Assembly: GCA_938083015.1 (NCBI GenBank)
Contig: CALKCX010000001.1
Location: 1-34,987 of the forward strand
Direction: 5' to 3'
Length of the DNA: 34,987 bases
From: an uncultured Microcaldota archaeon
GTDB lineage: Archaea > Micrarchaeota > Micrarchaeia > Anstonellales > J096
Part shown: in pieces, positions 17,460-34,987 of the stretch
How the letters are laid out: each line of letters begins with the position of its first letter
Numbering within the stretch: position 1 is the stretch's first letter
Translations under genes and position numbers: made by a program
Notes under the pieces: model-generated
What the model was told of the DNA's origin: nothing
The model's database searches: none
The model's input: only the letters and a program-made list of their open reading frames with translations

Positions 17460-19672
17460 CTTATCACCGTATAATTAATAGATAAATCTCTACTTCTCTC
17501 TCTATCTAACCATATCTGTTGATTCCAATTTACCCCTAATTTTAATCTATCGTCATGGGTAATTATTATAAATTGATCTATTGATTCCATAGCAAGTTTA
17601 TTTATATTATCTATTAAATTATCTATTGAGAGATCGTCTAGATTATGAGTAGGTTCGTCTAATATTATTACTCTTAATTTCTTTGATATTATATCTAATA
17701 TACCTAATCTCATCGCTAAAGCATATACTGTTTTCTCTCCCCCGCTCATTCTATCTACGCTAACTAATTTATCACCTGTCTTAATAGTTAATTCATAACC
17801 TTCTTCATTTACAACTATCTTTGGATCCCCGTATATTTTACCATAATAAAGACTATTCCAATACTTTTCTAAATTCATGTTCAATACATCTATCAACCTT
17901 GCCCTACTTTTTACCATAAGATCTTTCATTTTACTATTTATTTCATCAAGATCTTTCCACAAAGCTCTTTTCAATTCTAGATTTTTTTCTCCTTGTTCTA
18001 ATTCTTCTAAATAAGGTAATAGCTCTTTTTTATCTCTTATACGAGCATTAATTGACGATTTTATCTGTTCTATAGTTACTATTATGTTTTCTATACTACT
18101 TCTCAATGAGGATAGTTCAGAATTAACATTTAAAAATTCTTGATCTATATTTTTTAGTCTTTCTAACTCTTGAAGCAATGCGGTTAAATAAGCTTCTTTA
18201 TTTTTCAATTCTTCTTTATATTTATCAACTTTAGCTTCAATTTCCTTTTTTCTATCTAATTTTCTCTCTATTTCAATTAGCTGTTGTTGCTCGTTTTTTA
18301 GCAATTCTTCGTCATCTAATTTCTGATTAATTATATTGTTAATCTCTTCTACTTTTTGTCTATGATCTTCTATAGAAGTATTCAATGAATTTATATTCTT
18401 TTTATTATCTTCTAAGAGTTGATTTAATTCTTTTAATTCTTTTTCCATGTTATTTAATGTTTTCTCCATATTAGTTTTAACATAATTTATAATATAAGCT
18501 AAGATGATAACAAAGAGTATTGACAGAATACCTATGTTAAATAACAATATTGCCAATATGATAAGAGGTATTCCTAATATTGTTTTGTTTAATAAATCAA
18601 TCTTCTGTCTTTGTTTATTTATCTCTTGCTTATAATTTTCTATTCTATAATTAATATCTTTATTCTTCTCTTCCATTATCTTTATTTGGCCGATCATCTC
18701 TTGTATTTTAAGCTCTATATCTCTTTTCTGATCTTTTAGGTTATCATTTATTCTCTTTTTTTCCTCTATCTCTTTTAATTTTTGTCCAATTTCTTCTAAT
18801 TTAATTCTAATCTGTTCTTTATCTAAATCTATGTTATAAGTTTTCAACTCATCTTCTAATCTTTTTATCTCATCTCTTAATTGAGCTATAGTTCCCTTGT
18901 TGATATCGTACTCGGTCTTATATTTTTTATGTTCATTATACTTCTTTGATATCTCTGGAAGTTTTTGTTTTAAAGCAATTTCTCTTTGTTCTCTATCTTT
19001 CAAAATTTTTTCGTATTTATCCAATTTCTCTTTCAATACTTTCAATTCCTCTTCTATATTCATTAATCTCTGTTGATATCTTTTTTTAATTTCTATCAAA
19101 ACTGCCATATTCTCTTTAATTTCTTTATCTATTGCTTTCATCATAATTGTTATCCTATCTATTCTAGTTTGATGTTGTTCTATACCAAATATCGTATCTA
19201 AATAAGTCTTTAGTTCCTTAGGTCTTAAATTCAATATTTTATATATACCATCTTGGGCACCGTATAGGACTTTTAAGAATATATCTCTTTGTATACCTAG
19301 CATTTTCTCTACTTCTTTAGATATTTCATCATTATTCCTTGTCTTAAGTTTATCATCTATATATAAGCTACTCTCTTCTCCTTTATTACCAGCGTATATA
19401 TTTCTTTTAATATTCACCTTTCTATTTTGAACAATGAATTCAACTTCTATATTCGCCGATTTAGCTCCATCTCTAATGAAGTCCTTTTTATTAGTCTTAG
19501 CTATTGATCTATAACTATCTGTTATTGAACCAAATAATCCATAAAGTATACCTTCTATTATACTAGTTTTACCAGATCCGTTTTTACCAAATATCAATAT
19601 TTTGCCTTTGTTAAAAGATACTTCTGTATTTTTATGAGACATCCAATTAGATAAGTTAACTCTTGTAATCAT
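17456..19672 (-). CDS. Rad50/SMC-like ATPase with a central transmembrane-like hairpin in place of the zinc hook
   Basis: N-terminal NLSNWMSHKNTEVSF...GKNGSGKTSIIEGILYGLFG (Walker A); coiled coils; C-terminal DRMSGGEKTVYALAMRLGIL (signature), RVIILDEPTHNLDD (Walker B), FIIITHDDRL. No Cys residues. Central hydrophobic segment ILGIPLIILAILLFNIGILSILFVIILAYIINYV. Confidence 0.92.
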   Translation of the reverse strand: MITRVNLSNWMSHKNTEVSFNKGKILIFGKNGSGKTSIIEGILYGLFGSITDSYRSIAKTNKKDFIRDGAKSANIEVEFIVQNRKVNIKRNIYAGNKGEESSLYIDDKLKTRNNDEISKEVEKMLGIQRDIFLKVLYGAQDGIYKILNLRPKELKTYLDTIFGIEQHQTRIDRITIMMKAIDKEIKENMAVLIEIKKRYQQRLMNIEEELKVLKEKLDKYEKILKDREQREIALKQKLPEISKKYNEHKKYKTEYDINKGTIAQLRDEIKRLEDELKTYNIDLDKEQIRIKLEEIGQKLKEIEEKKRINDNLKDQKRDIELKIQEMIGQIKIMEEKNKDINYRIENYKQEINKQRQKIDLLNKTILGIPLIILAILLFNIGILSILFVIILAYIINYVKTNMEKTLNNMEKELKELNQLLEDNKKNINSLNTSIEDHRQKVEEINNIINQKLDDEELLKNEQQQLIEIERKLDRKKEIEAKVDKYKEELKNKEAYLTALLQELERLKNIDQEFLNVNSELSSLRSSIENIIVTIEQIKSSINARIRDKKELLPYLEELEQGEKNLELKRALWKDLDEINSKMKDLMVKSRARLIDVLNMNLEKYWNSLYYGKIYGDPKIVVNEEGYELTIKTGDKLVSVDRMSGGEKTVYALAMRLGILDIISKKLRVIILDEPTHNLDDLSIDNLIDNINKLAMESIDQFIIITHDDRLKLGVNWNQQIWLDRERSRDLSINYTVIR

Positions 19673-20406
19673 ATTCTTCTAATAGATAACGTAAATTTAT
19701 TAAAATATAGATTTGCCCCCAATATTATTAAGAATGGTAAGAATAAGAATACGTTTATCAATAGCATTAACCATCTTATAACTTCAAGAGGTAACACGAT
19801 GTTTATCAAGAATATCGTAATTAAATTAGCTAAAGTAGCAATTATTCCATAGATTAGCGGGTATATTAATAATTCTTTTCTAAACAGATATATTTTTTTT
19901 ATGGCCTTTTCAAAATTCACTTCTTCTATGACAATTGCATAAGGTATTAAAATTAAAATATAGCTTATTAAGAATATTATAATTGATAAAACCCAGCTAT
20001 CAAAAGAGTAAACATAACCGTATATTGATATAGATAATTGTAAAAGGAACCAGAATATGAAAAACATGTATACTTCTGGTAAACTATGTTTTATGTTTTT
20101 TATAAAAGCTTCTTTTGGTATCTGTTCAGTTCTATATTCTTTTGTTGCCAATGTCAATACTACAAATACTAAGCTATAGATAAACATTGTAATTAAATAA
20201 AATAAAATTATTAAAAACATTTGAAATAAGTCTATTTCGGTTAGTTTAGAAATCCTTATAAATATGCCGAATGTTGACAGGTAAATATATTCTGGCAATA
20301 GATGTAATAATAAGGCAGATGTTACTAGAAGGATAAATCCTACGATTAATACTAAATCTAAAGATTGTAAATACACATCTATGCTACTCTTAAGTTCGTA
20401 GATCAT
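19669..20406 (-). CDS. Polytopic membrane protein of unknown function, first gene of the Rad50-like operon
   Basis: 245 aa with about six hydrophobic segments; 4-nt overlap with the Rad50-like gene. Confidence 0.7.
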   Translation of the reverse strand: MIYELKSSIDVYLQSLDLVLIVGFILLVTSALLLHLLPEYIYLSTFGIFIRISKLTEIDLFQMFLIILFYLITMFIYSLVFVVLTLATKEYRTEQIPKEAFIKNIKHSLPEVYMFFIFWFLLQLSISIYGYVYSFDSWVLSIIIFLISYILILIPYAIVIEEVNFEKAIKKIYLFRKELLIYPLIYGIIATLANLITIFLINIVLPLEVIRWLMLLINVFLFLPFLIILGANLYFNKFTLSIRRI

Positions 20407-20450: not shown

Positions 20451-21116
20451 ATGACACAATTGTTAGATCAAAATACAAGAGATGCAATAAAAAAATACCT
20501 AGCTGGTATGGAAAGTCCTGTAAAATTATTGGTAATTACAGATAATCGCTCTCCAAATTGTACGTATTGTAATGATATAAAAATGCTTTTCAAAGAATTG
20601 TCTGAACTTGATCTGGAGATGTTACAGATAGAATTAATAGATGGATGGAGAGAAGAATTTGAGAAAAATTATGGTATAAGATTTGAACACGTACCTGCAA
20701 TTGTATTTTTAAATGATAACGTAAAAGGCAAAATCGTCTACAGAGGTATTCCAGCAGATCAAGAATTTGGAGTATTTTTAGAAACTATATTAGAATTGTC
20801 ATTAGGACATGTACATCTTAGAGATGAAGATGTAGAAAGAATAAAGAAGATTGATAAGAATGTCGATATTAATGTATATGTTACTCCTTCATGTCCTTAT
20901 TGTCCAGCAGCAGTAGCATCAGCTTATTCTATAGCAATGCTTAACCCCAATATAAAGGCATATGCAGTTGAATCTGTAGAATTTCAAGTAGAGAGTAATG
21001 AAAATAAAATTAGAGCAGTCCCAACTGTTATTATAAAGACAGATAAGAAAACTGTAAGATTTGAAGGGGCATTGCCCATTGACGTATTTATAAGTAAAAT
21101 CGAATCTGCATTATAA
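20451..21116 (+). CDS. Protein disulfide oxidoreductase (double thioredoxin-fold, PDO-like)
   Basis: Two redox motifs in tandem thioredoxin-like halves: SPNCTYCNDIKMLF and TPSCPYCPAAVASAYS; cis-Pro-like EHVPAIVFL and IRAVPTVII. Confidence 0.9.
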   Translation: MTQLLDQNTRDAIKKYLAGMESPVKLLVITDNRSPNCTYCNDIKMLFKELSELDLEMLQIELIDGWREEFEKNYGIRFEHVPAIVFLNDNVKGKIVYRGIPADQEFGVFLETILELSLGHVHLRDEDVERIKKIDKNVDINVYVTPSCPYCPAAVASAYSIAMLNPNIKAYAVESVEFQVESNENKIRAVPTVIIKTDKKTVRFEGALPIDVFISKIESAL

Positions 21117-22875: not shown

Positions 22876-24390
22876 ATGGGATTAGTACAGATTATACTGA
22901 ATAATACAGACATACTGGCATTGGGACTTGGTATAGGCCTGTCAGTAGCCTTAATAATATATTTTTACAATCTAATATTTAAGAAAGATCAGGCAAAGGT
23001 AAGTGAAACTATAAAAGATGTGGCAATTGTAATATTTTATATTATCGTATTATTCGTATTAGACAGTATATATAATGTCATGCTTGCCAATTGGTTAGGT
23101 TTATCTACAGTACCACCTGGTACTAATTTAAGATTAGCAGAAGCTGTAATATACAAAGACATAGATAAGTTTAGAGAGAGCTTAATGTACGTATACTTGG
23201 CCGATTTTATATTAAACTTATTTGGATCTTTTCATGTTCATATACATACTGCTTTAAATCCTGAGATGTCTTTGTTACCAGGTTCATCGATATTTAAACG
23301 TCTAGCAAATGCAACTGCCACATTGCTATCTGATAAAGCTGCTTTAGATCCGTATAAAAGTGAGACCGATTTAAATATATTTTCTGTATTCTTATCGCCT
23401 ATGCAAATGCTATATACTGCTTCTTATGGTATGTTTCTAATATTAGTATATAAATACGTTAAACTTACAATTATAACTTATCTTCCTATGATTATGTCTA
23501 TATTTGTTCCATTAGGTCTGTTATTGGTATTCTTACCTATTACTAGAAAAGTAGGTATGACAATACTGGGCTTAGCTGTTACTCTTTACTATCTATTCCC
23601 CGTATTTATAATATACGCGGATACTGTTTTGAGAAATATGCCAGATCTTGATTATAGATATATATCATCTTATATATCTCCTACTATAGTAGAATTTCTC
23701 GATAGATCTTCTTCTCCTCAAAATCCTTCTCAGCTAATAGGGTATAAATATGCTTTTATAGAGAGAGAAAAGCAATATAGTATGCAAAATATAAATCAAA
23801 TTGTTTCTGATAATAATTCAATAGCTGATAGTCAAAAGGAAACAATTGGCACAATATACTTGTATTCTTTTGTTGATGCTCAATCTATATGTGAAAACAA
23901 TGTTGATGATGAAATATGTAGAGAATATGAAACTGTAAACATAGGTAGTTTTAGATCTGAAAACTCTTTAGCACCTGTAGCATCTTTAGGGGGCAATATT
24001 TTGAAATTTGCTGCCTTAGCAAGAACTAGTGCAGCTATTAAAGAAGTATTGCAATCATCTTATGTTGTTGCAGTAACAAATCCAGTATTGCTTTTATTAA
24101 GAAACATAGCTAATATTGCTATAAACATAGCAATATCCACGATATATATTACGCAGATAATGCCTATTCCTGGAGTATCCCAGTTAATATACGGTGCTTT
24201 GAATATTCCGTTTATTCCATTTTTGATTTTCAAGACAATATTAGAAGTATTGATAATCGTATATAAAAACATTCTATATGGATCAATAACGATATTTTTA
24301 GATATATTCTTAATAATAACAGGTTATAGAGCTGTTGCTTCTATAATAGGAGCAGAACAAAGAATACTAGGTTTAGAGAAGGTGTTATAA
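22876..24390 (+). CDS. Paralogous polytopic membrane protein 1 of 6
   Basis: 504 aa; N-terminal TM-linker-TM; LLVFLPITRKVGMTILGLAVTLYYLFPVF; C-terminus ILGLEKVL. Confidence 0.85.
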   Translation: MGLVQIILNNTDILALGLGIGLSVALIIYFYNLIFKKDQAKVSETIKDVAIVIFYIIVLFVLDSIYNVMLANWLGLSTVPPGTNLRLAEAVIYKDIDKFRESLMYVYLADFILNLFGSFHVHIHTALNPEMSLLPGSSIFKRLANATATLLSDKAALDPYKSETDLNIFSVFLSPMQMLYTASYGMFLILVYKYVKLTIITYLPMIMSIFVPLGLLLVFLPITRKVGMTILGLAVTLYYLFPVFIIYADTVLRNMPDLDYRYISSYISPTIVEFLDRSSSPQNPSQLIGYKYAFIEREKQYSMQNINQIVSDNNSIADSQKETIGTIYLYSFVDAQSICENNVDDEICREYETVNIGSFRSENSLAPVASLGGNILKFAALARTSAAIKEVLQSSYVVAVTNPVLLLLRNIANIAINIAISTIYITQIMPIPGVSQLIYGALNIPFIPFLIFKTILEVLIIVYKNILYGSITIFLDIFLIITGYRAVASIIGAEQRILGLEKVL

Positions 24391-25466
24391 TGTTACCAAT
24401 CTTCAATACTCTAATATTAACATTAATCGGTATTGTTATAGCTTACATAATACTATTGTATCTTCTATCTAGATTGAGCAATAATGAAGAATTGAAAAAT
24501 AATTATAAGATAGAGATGCAACAATTGTTACTTAGTGTATTTCTATTTATAGGAATACAGGCCATTGCCAATATAGTAAATCTTTTTTACAATACATATA
24601 CTCAAGGTTTTGATTTATTCGATTATATATCAATACAATTGACTTTAATGCTTAGAAATCTTCATGAATTTGCAGCTCATCTTACATTGACAGCTACTTT
24701 AATGAAGATGTTTGGAGAATTTACAAATATAGGTTATCCTCATGGTAATTTTGGATCGGCAAAATTAGTAGCATACCCAGGAGTAGATATTTTATCATCA
24801 GTTACATTTCAAATTAGAGATTTAATGTTTATAGCTACTGGTGGATTAGTAGCACAATCTATATTAATGGATGTTATAAAGACGTTATCTTTAACATTGT
24901 TATTACCAATAGGTATTGTTCTTAGAATATTACCTATATTTAGACAGTTTGGTAATGAATTAATAGGTTTATCCGTATCTTTATATATAATCATGCCTCT
25001 TATATACGCTGTATTTTTCCAGACTATGATAGATTTAGCAAGCTATAGAGGGGGGTTTATCGAGAGATTCACAGCTTATTATTTAATGTTATCCGATAGC
25101 GATCCTACTATGCTAGCACCAGATAAGATGTTTGTAAAAATACAGAATAATACCAGTATAATGAATACGGCCAATGTTATAATGGATTATGCCGATAATC
25201 AATATTTTAAAGATATTAATAGTGAACTTGAAGGTAAAACTTCAAATCCAGATAAATTGTATAGGATGTTTGAATTGTACATGTCAACATCTCTTGTAAA
25301 AGCAGGTTATGTACTTGGACTTCCTATATCTTTTTTATTCGTATTTGGCCTATATATATACGCAGCAGGATTTTTAGTATTTGCATTTGGTCTACCTGGA
25401 TTTGCACTAGCAATAACATTGACAGCTGCTAAAAGTATAAGAGACTCTTTAGAGAGGTTGACTTAA
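24390..25466 (+). CDS. Paralogous polytopic membrane protein 2 of 6
   Basis: 358 aa; TAATG overlap with gene 1; VLRILPIFRQFGNELIGLSVSLYIIMPLI; C-terminus IRDSLERLT. Confidence 0.85.
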   Translation: MLPIFNTLILTLIGIVIAYIILLYLLSRLSNNEELKNNYKIEMQQLLLSVFLFIGIQAIANIVNLFYNTYTQGFDLFDYISIQLTLMLRNLHEFAAHLTLTATLMKMFGEFTNIGYPHGNFGSAKLVAYPGVDILSSVTFQIRDLMFIATGGLVAQSILMDVIKTLSLTLLLPIGIVLRILPIFRQFGNELIGLSVSLYIIMPLIYAVFFQTMIDLASYRGGFIERFTAYYLMLSDSDPTMLAPDKMFVKIQNNTSIMNTANVIMDYADNQYFKDINSELEGKTSNPDKLYRMFELYMSTSLVKAGYVLGLPISFLFVFGLYIYAAGFLVFAFGLPGFALAITLTAAKSIRDSLERLT

Positions 25467-25467
25467 T

Positions 25468-26664
25468 ATGCATCCTATTATACAATTGGTTATTCCGATT
25501 ATAATCATCTCGATAATAATATACGTCATTGCACAGTTATTAGCTAGAATACTAAACAAGCCCGATATAGTAATGTATGTAAACATGGAGCTTCTAAACA
25601 TAATGATCTTTTTAATACTTTTAATAATCATACTTTTCTTAATAGATAATATTGTATACTTATCAGTATTAACTTTAAATCCTGATGCTGAAAACGAAGT
25701 TTGTAAGGCAAACAACATACCTAATTATAGATGTCACATAGTTATTTCTGGTTACTTTCTTGAATCTATACTTAGAGAGCTTACCGATTATTATATTCAG
25801 TTAAATTCAATGGTTATGGTAAATAATTTCTTTAAGTATATGGGGGGTGTAAAAGGTATACAGGGTGACAAGTATATAAAAATACAGTTTAATCCCCTTG
25901 TGTATATCGTAGATGGTTATCTAGAGCCTATAATTAGACAAACCCAGACTATGCTGCAATTCGTATTGGCCCAATTTATAATATTATGGTATATCACTTC
26001 TCCACAATTCTTTATTGGCTTTTTAACATTCGGCGTTATATTAAGAGTATTTGCACCTACTAAAACAGCTGGTGGTCTAATTATTGCATTGATAATAGGT
26101 TTATATTACGTATTTCCTATGGCCTATGTATTATTAGATGTACATTATAGATACGCATACGATGGTACATATGGGTTTAATAAAATCAATACTTTTAGAG
26201 TTACTGAACATCTATTTTCTATATTTGGTCTACCATCTGGTCTTGATAAGGCCATTAATTCTATAACAGGATTTATAGATAAATATAAGGATACGCAAAA
26301 CATACCTGTTAATGAGGCAGAAGAAAGAATAGGAGGTATTGCAGCTACTTTATCACAATTATCTTCAGTAGCATCTATATTGTTAAAAGCAGCTGTTATG
26401 GTATCTTTTATGGTTAGTTACCAATTAATATCTATGTTTCCAGTAGCTACTTTAGGTTATGGTTTACTTATTGATATGGTCCCTTCTATTAAGAATAATA
26501 TCGTGAATATACCTGTTCTTCTTCTTAATATATATACGGAATTCTTTTTGATATTTGGTGTTTTAATATATATTGCATTAATAAGTACTGTGGCATTTGT
26601 AAAAACTTTATCTCCTATTCTGGGTGGTGACGTTGAAATTGCTGGTATTACTCGTATTATTTAG
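25468..26664 (+). CDS. Paralogous polytopic membrane protein 3 of 6
   Basis: 398 aa; ILRVFAPTKTAGGLIIALIIGLYYVFPMA; C-terminus VEIAGITRII; Cys pair (ENEVCKANNIPNYRCHI) after TM2. Confidence 0.85.
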   Translation: MHPIIQLVIPIIIISIIIYVIAQLLARILNKPDIVMYVNMELLNIMIFLILLIIILFLIDNIVYLSVLTLNPDAENEVCKANNIPNYRCHIVISGYFLESILRELTDYYIQLNSMVMVNNFFKYMGGVKGIQGDKYIKIQFNPLVYIVDGYLEPIIRQTQTMLQFVLAQFIILWYITSPQFFIGFLTFGVILRVFAPTKTAGGLIIALIIGLYYVFPMAYVLLDVHYRYAYDGTYGFNKINTFRVTEHLFSIFGLPSGLDKAINSITGFIDKYKDTQNIPVNEAEERIGGIAATLSQLSSVASILLKAAVMVSFMVSYQLISMFPVATLGYGLLIDMVPSIKNNIVNIPVLLLNIYTEFFLIFGVLIYIALISTVAFVKTLSPILGGDVEIAGITRII

Positions 26665-27898
26665 TATATTATGGGCCAATTCATGTGATAACAATGGGTT
26701 TATTGATGAGACTTGTATAGAACAAGAAGTATTCGGTAAACCTGATGAAACTGTTATCAATAATATGATTAAAAAAATCTTTATTACTGCTAGAAATGCT
26801 ACAATAGGGTGGATAGATAATGTAATAGTAAACATGATAGGTCCTTTTACTGTCTGTAAAAACCCTTCTCCTATTAATATTGGTAATTTATTATCAACAG
26901 TAGCAACAATAATCATTATATCTTTTCTCTTAGTATTATTACTTCATTATATATATACTATGTTTAATACCTCTAGTAAATTCTCTATATTAGATGAGCT
27001 CGCTAATGGAATAATTACGCTATTATCTATTATAATAATAGCTGTCGTATTAAATTATTATGCTGTCAATAGTATATTTATCTATGCTAAAACATATGTT
27101 GTAGATGTGATGGTGAATTTCTCATTCTTTACCATGTTGTTAAAAACTATTGAAACAATGTTATTTGCATTGGCCAATATTGTATTACCTCTTGGACCAG
27201 CTGATGCTCGTGGTATATTCTCTATATCTTTCTCTCAACTGTTTTCAATAGTATTTAAATCTCTAGATGTGATTAAAACAATATTCTCAACAAGTATATT
27301 AGAATACGTATTTAAATTATTCTTACTATGTATAGGACCAAAAGTAATATTAGAAGTAATCTTACCTATAGCTGCATTACTTAGAGCATTTTACTTTACC
27401 AGACCAGGAGGAAATATGTTATTAGGCCTATCTATCGCCTTTATCGTAATATATCCTTTGATTATATACATATATTATAACATATATCAACATATCTCGA
27501 TAATATGGAATGTTTATTTTGCAGAATCAGCTTATAGGATGATTTCTGGAATAGCAATAGGATTAGTATTTGTACTTACTCCTTTAGCTGTTAAGGCCTT
27601 AGTTGTTACATCTTTTAATAAAATAGCAGATGTGGCAAATATAGGTAATATAATAAATGCGATAAATCAGAATGCCCAGACTTTACAATTTTTAGGTTTA
27701 AACATCGGGGGCATTATATCAATATTGCAATTTGTACCAGCTTTATACTTTTTAGTATTCGGGTATTTACAATTGGCATTGATAGCAGCATTGATATTAG
27801 GACCTCTTGCTTTATATCTTACAGTATCTCTTACAGGTCAAATTAGTAAAGCTTTAGGTACTGAAATAAACATAGCTGCTTTATCTAGGTTGATATAA
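26624..27898 (+). CDS. Paralogous polytopic membrane protein 4 of 6, with N-terminal signal-like segment and Cys-containing ectodomain
   Basis: Starts within the gene 3 C-terminus (GTG 26624 or TTG 26633 with upstream ggtgg); KLLVLLVLFSILWANSCDNNGFIDETC; LLRAFYFTRPGGNMLLGLSIAFIVIYPLI; C-terminus INIAALSRLI. Confidence 0.85.
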   Translation: MVTLKLLVLLVLFSILWANSCDNNGFIDETCIEQEVFGKPDETVINNMIKKIFITARNATIGWIDNVIVNMIGPFTVCKNPSPINIGNLLSTVATIIIISFLLVLLLHYIYTMFNTSSKFSILDELANGIITLLSIIIIAVVLNYYAVNSIFIYAKTYVVDVMVNFSFFTMLLKTIETMLFALANIVLPLGPADARGIFSISFSQLFSIVFKSLDVIKTIFSTSILEYVFKLFLLCIGPKVILEVILPIAALLRAFYFTRPGGNMLLGLSIAFIVIYPLIIYIYYNIYQHISIIWNVYFAESAYRMISGIAIGLVFVLTPLAVKALVVTSFNKIADVANIGNIINAINQNAQTLQFLGLNIGGIISILQFVPALYFLVFGYLQLALIAALILGPLALYLTVSLTGQISKALGTEINIAALSRLI

Positions 27899-27899
27899 T

Positions 27900-29291
27900 A
27901 TGATAGGTATTGACAATATTAATGGTACAAACATTGAAGATAATGTAAATTCTATGATAAACTTTATGATAAATCAGATATCAGTAACTTGTACAGACCC
28001 TATACAAGAGAGATGTGATTATGAATCTAAAGATATGACAAGTATATATCAAAACATTAAATCCAATATGGGAATATTGAAGACAGTTCATCAATCTATA
28101 ATAGATGCAATAGCTAAGATGATCGATTATCTTTATAGAACTACTACAGGTCAAGGAGATATGTTCGGAGACAGATATTGTTCTAGTTTAAACTTCAATT
28201 ACATAACCTCTGTTATCGGATTAGGTATCTTCTTAATATTAAGTTATCTATTAATAGAATTCGTAGCTAGGATAATAGGTAATAACAAATATCAGGCATT
28301 AGCTAGAAAAGAGATAGCAGATATATTAATATTATTACCTTTATTAATAGCTTTATTGTATTTGCCATGCATGATATATATTGATAATATAAGTATACAT
28401 CAAAGATCTTTATTATATATACATTCGGCAATATTCTCATCTTTCGTATCAATCATACCTTTAACGTATTACGCTGGTACTGTGGCCGCCCATAGTGTAA
28501 GTGTTGTTCAAAATCTAGGTGGAGGTGCTCCTCAAACTGCACCTTTAGCTAGTCAATATTATGAATCTGCTTTAGCATTGACTAGACAGGCCACAACGTT
28601 TTTAGCATTGTCATTTGTATGGGTAAATACATTTACATATCTCTACGATATATTTACTTATGGATTTGTTAGATATCTATTACCAATAGCTATCATATTA
28701 AGATTTATACCTTTTACTAGATCTTTAGGCGGTGGATTATTAGGTTTAATTGTAGCTTCCAATTTATTTATTCCAATAATATTTTCAATAAACTACGAGA
28801 TTATAAAGATGTTTGGTCCAGCATATTTTCATATGGATAATAATAAAGTTACGTTAAAATTCAACCCTTGGATAGAAATGGTATTATCTGTATTTGCCAG
28901 CGTATTCATATTGGCCTTAATAGTAAATCTAACCATGGCATTGAGATTTTTTGGTAATATTAAACACGCTATATCAAGATTTAGAATTTGGCAGACCATT
29001 AGACAAGGATTTAGAAGATTGTTAGGTTCTGTTATAGGTATAGGTGGAGGTGTATCTACTACCAGTATATCTATATTTGCATCAATATCATCTGTGACTA
29101 CTACATCTATTAGATTATTTGCATTTCAAATTCCTCTGTTAATACTAATAGCAATTCTCATCGTATCGGTAATAATATTCAATATATTATTGCCTACCAT
29201 AACATTCTTATTCCTTACATCTACTATTAAATACTTATCAGCTATATTTGGTGAAGAGTTTGATCTTGCAAACTTAACTAGGTTGGTGTAA
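27900..29291 (+). CDS. Paralogous polytopic membrane protein 5 of 6, with Cys-containing N-terminal domain
   Basis: 463 aa; SVTCTDPIQERCDY...GDRYCSS; ILRFIPFTRSLGGGLLGLIVASNLFIPII; C-terminus FDLANLTRLV. Confidence 0.85.
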   Translation: MIGIDNINGTNIEDNVNSMINFMINQISVTCTDPIQERCDYESKDMTSIYQNIKSNMGILKTVHQSIIDAIAKMIDYLYRTTTGQGDMFGDRYCSSLNFNYITSVIGLGIFLILSYLLIEFVARIIGNNKYQALARKEIADILILLPLLIALLYLPCMIYIDNISIHQRSLLYIHSAIFSSFVSIIPLTYYAGTVAAHSVSVVQNLGGGAPQTAPLASQYYESALALTRQATTFLALSFVWVNTFTYLYDIFTYGFVRYLLPIAIILRFIPFTRSLGGGLLGLIVASNLFIPIIFSINYEIIKMFGPAYFHMDNNKVTLKFNPWIEMVLSVFASVFILALIVNLTMALRFFGNIKHAISRFRIWQTIRQGFRRLLGSVIGIGGGVSTTSISIFASISSVTTTSIRLFAFQIPLLILIAILIVSVIIFNILLPTITFLFLTSTIKYLSAIFGEEFDLANLTRLV

Positions 29292-29292
29292 C

Positions 29293-30279
29293 ATGGAGCA
29301 ATATCAAATTGTAGCTATATCAATTGCTATGATTAGTGTAATACTAGCAGTATTACTATATCAAATATCGAAGATATTTAATCTACCAGGATTGAAGAGG
29401 TATTCTGAGATGTTTATATGGGAAGCGTTTTTAACAATACTTTTAGCTTTATTCTTATTCTTAATCTTAGATAAAGTTAATAGCTTTCTTTTTGACGTAT
29501 CTGTAAGTATGTTTAAAACTATAAATCTAGATGTTTCTAATGTTCAACACAAGAGTCCTATGGCATTAGCTAGAGAGGTATTAAGAACATTAATATCTGA
29601 TTGTTATCTAAACATGTACGGTTCTTATTTAATGGCAAGGGCAATTCTTGAATCTATGGGCAGCTCTCTATCAGAAGTAGGAGCAGAGAATACTAAATTA
29701 CCTACTAGTACGGCCGTATATTCAATAATATGGATGAAAGATCTATTGAAGTTATTCCATTTTTTAATATGGACAGGAATGGTAATGCTTAAGATCATGT
29801 ACTTCTTCTCTGCTTATTATCCAGTTTTGATAATGCTCGGCATAATATTAAGAGCTTTTGAACCTACTAAATCAATGGGAGCTTATTTAATTAGTTTAGG
29901 AATTGGATTATTTGTAGTATTTCCATTTGGGTATAATCTGGGGTTAGTAATAAATTATAATGAAATGTTATGTAATATGCCTAGAGAGATTAGAAATAAT
30001 ACTGAAATTGCAACTGGATTTTACAGTATGTTTGAAATAGGTGAAAATGCAAAAAGTTTTGTAGGAGTAGTTACAATGTTAAAGACTTTAACAGATTTTA
30101 CAATAGGTTTATTAGTAGCTCCGCATAAAGTAGTAGAATTAATATACGCTGTAACAGCAGTCACCTTAATAACTCCTCTTATAGCTTTTATAATAGCTTT
30201 GTCTTTCATAAACATATCTACTACTGCATTAGGGGGAAGAATTAGTGAAATCGGAAGAGGTCTGTTTAAGTTAATTTAA
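29293..30279 (+). CDS. Paralogous polytopic membrane protein 6 of 6
   Basis: 328 aa; ILRAFEPTKSMGAYLISLGIGLFVVFPFG; C-terminus ISEIGRGLFKLI. Confidence 0.85.
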   Translation: MEQYQIVAISIAMISVILAVLLYQISKIFNLPGLKRYSEMFIWEAFLTILLALFLFLILDKVNSFLFDVSVSMFKTINLDVSNVQHKSPMALAREVLRTLISDCYLNMYGSYLMARAILESMGSSLSEVGAENTKLPTSTAVYSIIWMKDLLKLFHFLIWTGMVMLKIMYFFSAYYPVLIMLGIILRAFEPTKSMGAYLISLGIGLFVVFPFGYNLGLVINYNEMLCNMPREIRNNTEIATGFYSMFEIGENAKSFVGVVTMLKTLTDFTIGLLVAPHKVVELIYAVTAVTLITPLIAFIIALSFINISTTALGGRISEIGRGLFKLI

Positions 30280-34504: not shown

Positions 34505-34987
34505 ATGAAAAAGATGACCGTAAAGAAAATGGGAGCTGTTCTTGGAGCAGCTCTTGTGGCCAGCTCTGCATTCGGTGCAGTTTTTTATGACAATACAGAG
34601 TTGGTATCTAACAATGGACAAGTAGTAGCAAAAGTAGTAGTAGGATCTAAAGCACAACCATCAGATGGAGTTGCAGCAGCAAAGATAGCAAGTTATTTAG
34701 CAAGTAGAGCATTCCAGACAAGACAGGTTACTGCACAGATTGAAGGTCAGGCAACATGTACAGTAACCGGAGGCACAGGTGATGCAAGATGTGAAGTAGT
34801 CAATAAGAGCGTAGACTTGACAATAATAATGCCTGGTCTAAGAAGTAATCAAGTAGTACAGATAAATCCTTTAATAGGAGAAACTCTTGATACAGAAGTC
34901 GGAGACAGAGATGCACCAGGTTCTTCAGATAGTTTAAATGTATTAACAAAACTATGGGATGACTATGCACATCCAGATCAAGATCAA
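34505..34987 (+). CDS. Partial S-layer-like protein (5' end only; open at window end), absent from the ORF track
   Basis: Translated: MKKMTVKKMGAVLGAALVASSAFGAVFYDNTELVSNNGQVVAKVVVGSKAQPSDGVAAAKIASYLASRAFQTRQVTAQIEGQATCTV... The signal peptide plus VGSxAxxSDGVAAAxIAxxLA resembles archaeal S-layer N-termini. Confidence 0.8.
   Translation, partial: MKKMTVKKMGAVLGAALVASSAFGAVFYDNTELVSNNGQVVAKVVVGSKAQPSDGVAAAKIASYLASRAFQTRQVTAQIEGQATCTVTGGTGDARCEVVNKSVDLTIIMPGLRSNQVVQINPLIGETLDTEVGDRDAPGSSDSLNVLTKLWDDYAHPDQDQ

Follow-up and report, generated by a model that had tools for sequence, protein, structure and literature searches.

Rickettsiales, host-dependent bacteria, carry a T4SS in which tandem, divergent VirB6 paralogs, some of them hugely extended, share one operon with virB3 and virB4; four virB6 copies are present in Anaplasmataceae and five in Rickettsiaceae (virB6-1 to virB6-4/5) (PMC7648143). 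In the conjugative T4SS of R388 a polytopic protein is likewise encoded together with VirB3 and VirB4, and this VirB6 (TrwI), the product of one gene, forms a homopentamer (PMC9259494). Ced and Ted (CedA/CedB, TedA/TedB) are chromosomal archaeal T4SS derivatives that combine a polytopic CedA channel with a CedB ATPase of the VirB4/HerA type (PMC9905601); each system has one CedA and a CedA1/TedC pilin. Among DPANN archaea, Nanohaloarchaeota encode giant SPEARE proteins, with Ig-like extracellular domains fused to a VirB4 ATPase, for which a T4SS-like role in host contact is proposed (PMC10266531).

The window, by which we mean the whole stretch of 34,987 nucleotides that was analysed (contig CALKCX010000001.1 of assembly GCA_938083015.1, forward strand), comes from an uncultured and probably host-dependent archaeon of the Micrarchaeota/Microcaldota. 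Its genome amounts to 518 kb in 15 contigs and is 84% complete. The nearest named relatives are the Candidatus Micrarchaeota records SKYB44 and JZ-3 (59% identity); NCBI now assigns Fermentimicrarchaeum to the phylum Microcaldota. The window holds a cluster of six genes for polytopic membrane proteins, of which we found no earlier description in the open-access literature. By analogy, its nearest counterpart would be the virB3-virB4-virB6 operon with extended VirB6 proteins of Rickettsiales (PMC7648143). That system is bacterial and has recognisable TrbL/VirB6 domains, other Vir components and four or five copies, whereas Micrarchaeota have six copies with no VirB6 sequence match. Ced and Ted differ in having one CedA instead of six channel-like paralogs, R388 in building its ring from one gene; the part of the Nanohaloarchaeota account considered here does not describe six paralogous channel proteins (PMC10266531).

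The six genes are adjacent on the + strand at 22876-30279 with spacing near zero, as the sequence-only reading of this DNA had reported. The junctions are a 1-nt overlap at A/B, 1-nt gaps at B/C, D/E and E/F, and a 41-nt overlap at C/D. A common layout of TM1, linker and TM2 can be recognised as a hairpin in all six, except that in D and E it sits behind an N-terminal extension of 80-95 aa. The mid-protein motif pointed out earlier can be generalised to G-x3-R-x4-T-[RK]-x2-G-x14-P. In 56 clusters every one of the six positions has retained it, although its first Arg is lost from the position 1 protein of the window. Missed at that stage were a second six-gene cluster of the same genome (see below) and a conserved C-terminal motif, LGG[DE]xxIxGLx[RK]LI; position 2 and its orthologs lack this LGGxxxIxGL motif.

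Table 1. The six clustered genes of the window, with coordinates counted from its first nucleotide
Position (ORF)	Coordinates	Strand	Length	Features	Basis
1 (A)	22876..24390	+	504 aa	Polytopic; central motif GLLLVFLPITRKVGMTILGLAVTLYYLFP, first Arg lost	Family profile (E=1e-43); clade I_1
2 (B)	24390..25466	+	358 aa		ORF, family profile, tree clade
3 (C)	25468..26664	+	398 aa	C-terminal motif best preserved here, LGGDVEIAGITRII	ORF, profile, clade, AF2
4 (D)	26624..27898	+	424 aa	GTG start within the end of position 3	ORF, profile, clade
5 (E)	27900..29291	+	463 aa	N-terminal extension ahead of TM1	ORF, profile, clade
6 (F)	29293..30279	+	328 aa	All-helical AF2 model	ORF, profile, clade

Other genes of the window include a 245 aa polytopic membrane protein without a Pfam or NCBIfam family (19669-20406, – strand), which adjoins rad50, and a two-domain glutaredoxin/thioredoxin-like protein (20451-21116) between Rad50 and a tRNA-synthetase-like gene. 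At 34505-34987 an S-layer-like protein begins, which has a signal peptide (NCBIfam S_layer_MJ, 5e-5, just under the cut-off). A search of the window against Rfam gave no match.

Pairwise BLASTP between the six proteins gave C-F (E=6e-10) and A-B (E=4e-8) as best pairs, most other pairs being weak. Position-specific profiles made from relatives matched one another with 99.92-100% probability (E=1e-35 to 1e-44 over ~300 columns), while four unrelated polytopic families used as controls reached <1% against the same profiles. Because the best BLASTP pairs stand above background and the profile comparison separates the six from the controls, the six ORFs are, by the measure of sequence comparison, true paralogs whose similarity exceeds the hydrophobic background, as had been suspected. 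The family profile marked only ORFs within clusters when run over 352 ORFs, and the iterated profile collected 123 members, all of them in such clusters, from 22 loci that comprise the window and relatives.

The same reading had pointed towards VirB6, TrbL and CedA. A scan of 66 family members (E<=0.1) with the Pfam and NCBIfam profiles revealed no TrbL/VirB6 match. In hhalign comparisons with six plasmid VirB6 and two Sulfolobus TrbL-like proteins the probability stayed below 4%, near the null level, but the two known sets likewise failed to recognise one another (2.3%), which makes this comparison uninformative. AF2 models were mainly helical for position 3 (pLDDT 79.9, pTM 0.70) and position 6 (pLDDT 85.4, pTM 0.80), and neither had a significant Foldseek match. 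For position 6, TrwI/VirB6 ranked 19 and 32 among PDB neighbours with TM-scores of 0.26 and 0.28 (0.28 being the highest listed) at a non-significant E of about 1, and a phage TrbL protein ranked fifth in BFVD with a TM-score of 0.33, the highest among the top viral matches listed and again not significant. The matches listed for position 3 contained no VirB6, only generic helical proteins. The structural resemblance to VirB6/TrbL is suggestive but not significant. Since a VirB6 sequence match was sought and not found, we file the six proteins as working like VirB6 and not as members of the VirB6 family.

Several other identities were considered and set aside. An ordinary transporter family produced no Pfam or NCBIfam match above chance. 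A profile match to flagellin in PDB was single, weak and judged spurious; a CedE match (2.5e-4) was confined to one of the 66 members and was not taken as evidence. PADLOC had no match to the six, and the ATPase described below gave only a generic match to HerA-like models, which lends no support to a role in defence. No relatives of position 3 were found in viral contigs and no match to position 6 in plasmids.

A DUF87 search led to a partner operon on another contig of the same genome (C8, locus L121 in our numbering), unlinked to the six-gene cluster. Its first gene product, of 276 aa, has two TM helices at the N-terminus as well as a soluble domain; after it come an ATPase of 521 aa and proteins of 144, 233 and 794 aa. 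The last of these is membrane-anchored (L121:856-3240) and has homologs of ~790-835 aa in L158, L161, L163 and L199. With DUF87 (PF01935; 59.2 bits, cut-off 23.2, 8e-16) and P-loop_TraG (PF19044; 49.4 bits, cut-off 25.8, 3.5e-13) both above curated cut-offs, the ATPase can be assigned to the VirB4/HerA superfamily. It also matched VirB4 in PDB (4ag5, 5e-11) and the VirB4 CD1110 model (3e-26), the latter over the ATPase domain only and below the equivalog cut-off. Unlike its Ced/Ted counterparts, the Micrarchaeota ATPase lacks the N-terminal half and has a separate two-TM protein upstream. The missing half is probably this 276 aa protein, whose layout appears to resemble VirB3 plus the N-terminal domain of VirB4; database searches with it gave no informative match.

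Proximity to HerA/VirB4-type ATPases had been proposed as a check on the cluster. In Ca. Fermentimicrarchaeum limneticum (CP058998, L199) one strand carries, in this order, the six genes, two copies of the two-TM gene, the ATPase and homologs of the three proteins of 144, 233 and 794 aa. The cluster is contiguous with the two-TM protein and the ATPase also in L194, L201 and L204, which are single-contig genomes, and in L058, L066, L072 and L114. The wider scan found the ATPase away from the cluster at the majority of loci, so that direct linkage is confined to some lineages. The ATPase of the window genome groups with the cluster-linked ATPases in a VirB4 tree (81/99). We discounted the ORFs entered as ATPases for L197 and L205 in that tree, since they proved to be in the wrong frame or not ATPases; L197 has a real VirB4-type ATPase in another frame.

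Across 395 genomes, counts from which are phylogenetically non-independent, the family was present in 269, the two-TM partner in 255 and both in 254, giving 16 disagreements. Fifteen genomes had the family without the partner, four of these being weak matches outside the class and at least one (G195) having a weaker partner beside a solo family member; one had the partner without the family. The two lists of negatives otherwise name the same 19 genomes, and a lineage without either the family or the partner is without the other as well. Thus, operon linkage to a VirB4/CedB-type ATPase and near-identical presence and absence support the secretion direction of the sequence-only reading, while a sequence match to VirB6, TrbL or CedA, which it had considered possible, did not appear. 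Solo family members were detected in L195 (9498-12616), L196, L200, L202, L203 and L206, mostly in genomes that also carry the six-gene cluster. Each lies beside a two-TM protein of its own and a VirB4-like ATPase that is shorter, which suggests that the machine also exists in a single-subunit form.

On balance, we think it probable that the six genes encode the membrane channel or platform of a T4SS/Ced-like translocation machine of Micrarchaeota, an obligate hetero-oligomeric VirB6-like channel. Each protein would act as a VirB6-like polytopic subunit, and one copy of each, side by side, would assemble into a ring of unlike subunits. If the gene count is a guide to stoichiometry, this would most simply be a heterohexamer, although VirB6 of R388 is a homopentamer (PMC9259494). 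A cytoplasmic VirB4/CedB-type ATPase would serve the ring together with the two-TM protein, which may combine a VirB3-like part with the missing N-terminal part of VirB4, and with accessory membrane proteins; in the lineage of the window the ATPase and its partners would be supplied from the other locus, on contig C8. The machine would be expected to carry macromolecules (DNA and/or protein) through the envelope where cells touch, plausibly where the archaeon meets its host. Of the usual T4SS components, we identified neither a VirB2 pilin nor a relaxase or coupling protein.

A ring and VirB4/CedB ATPase of this kind could instead serve import of the Ced/Ted type with no export, the DNA coming from the host or the environment and being used as a source of nucleotides or in repair; we regard this as unlikely but worth keeping in mind. 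The ATPase does match CedB (1e-24) and CedD (4e-20) besides VirB4, and Ced and Ted supply chromosomal archaeal precedents. These scores are, however, far under the equivalog cut-offs (87 bits of 700 for CedB, again over the ATPase domain only, and 72 of 600 for CedD); CedA is one protein, not six, and no CedA1-like pilin was seen in the loci examined.

The second cluster of the same genome (cluster II, the window cluster being cluster I) lies on contig C10 (C10:45000-56692, locus L004) and encodes proteins of about 884-894, 334, 881, 386, 388 and 327 aa. Two members have insertions or extensions of ~500 aa, one member shows Ig-like Pfam matches, and a secreted-looking protein of 700+ aa follows. 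The genome thereby holds twelve family copies in total; a search of it for a thirteenth found none. In other genomes a pair of giant proteins (1294-1920 aa) directly follows cluster II (L155:6142-15032, L045:10673-19770 and L042:10332-19998); where scanned (L045), they had no Pfam matches. In L155 (genome G014) the two giant proteins are followed by the two-TM/ATPase pair.

Such features would also suit a surface-display or adhesion platform, on which the paralogs export large adhesins and hold them in place so that the cell can attach to its host, no conduit into the host being formed. The large inserted domains of cluster II, the 700-1900 aa proteins downstream and the Ig-like matches of one member fit this alternative, as does the host-binding role proposed for the nanohaloarchaeal giant Ig-like proteins with a VirB4 domain (PMC10266531). 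We nonetheless find it distinctly doubtful: clusters of the compact kind I, which lacks a giant partner in the window, are also paired with a VirB4-type ATPase.

Conservation of the cluster elsewhere, another check proposed at the outset, proved extensive. We examined 59 Micrarchaeota clusters separated by >1.3 kb from the nearest contig or locus end, and all 59 have exactly six genes; the set includes loci where the same record was reached twice, so that distinct clusters number nearer fifty. Position-specific profiles confirmed the order 1-2-3-4-5-6 in 54; the other five, from divergent genomes (families f14 and f18), have six genes each at positions that the profiles did not resolve. Apparent clusters of fewer than six genes were due to edge truncation or to an artefact of the overlap filter. 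Neighbouring genes were within 20 nt of each other in 243 of 276 pairs, 104 of which overlap. All 67 loci of a GTDB scan belong to Micrarchaeota, Ca. ainarchaeum, Ca. Burarchaeum or unnamed archaea. Weak matches outside the class (E 5e-10 to 7e-5 in G344, G354, G374 and G394; L173-L176) could be distant relatives in other archaea.

In a tree of 111 proteins, positions I_1 to I_6 each form one clade (SH-aLRT 27, 96, 97, 98, 83 and 95). At positions 2 (92), 5 (96) and 6 (96) the cluster II proteins group with their cluster I counterparts, although at 5 and 6 the grouping does not include L004 and L038, the two clusters with the longest branches; as the tree comes from a short search and has long branches, its deeper joins are tentative. 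Because each cluster I position forms its own clade, the six subunits are, as far as their phylogeny tells, ancient and non-interchangeable. The simplest reading is that the six-gene cassette is ancient and was later duplicated as a unit, its subunits each retaining their identity. A hetero-oligomeric membrane complex, as proposed from the sequence, is the natural reading of paralogs that are ancient, colinear and always together. It is very improbable that the six are separate transporters or sensors kept in one operon by descent: the mirror-tree correlations, being uniform (0.93-0.96) and largely species-tree signal, would allow this, but copy number and order are invariant across very divergent genomes, the cassette was retained after duplication, no transporter family matches and VirB4 linkage is present.

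A fuller version of the preferred reading, that of a T4SS/Ced-like translocation machine, can be offered tentatively, as something we hold possible and not yet probable. A T4SS-like nanomachine may be present in most Micrarchaeota orders, its pore an obligate heterohexamer of six paralogs that was once a ring of identical subunits, still represented by the solo paralog with its own VirB4. Duplication of the cassette in several lineages may then have produced two specialised machines, one of them with giant surface domains, which together form a symbiont-host conduit.

How DPANN archaea exchange material with their hosts is a long-standing open question, for which the six-gene cluster provides concrete, conserved candidate genes; a host-contact role for the complex is plausible. 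The genes are present in genomes from cultivated co-cultures, putatively those of Mancarchaeum Mia14 (L194) and Micrarchaeum harzensis (L204), and they lead to a testable prediction, a mixed ring of six subunits. If true, this would show with unusual clarity how a homomeric channel can become an obligate heteromer, much as Rickettsiales offer a parallel in their tandem VirB6 paralogs.
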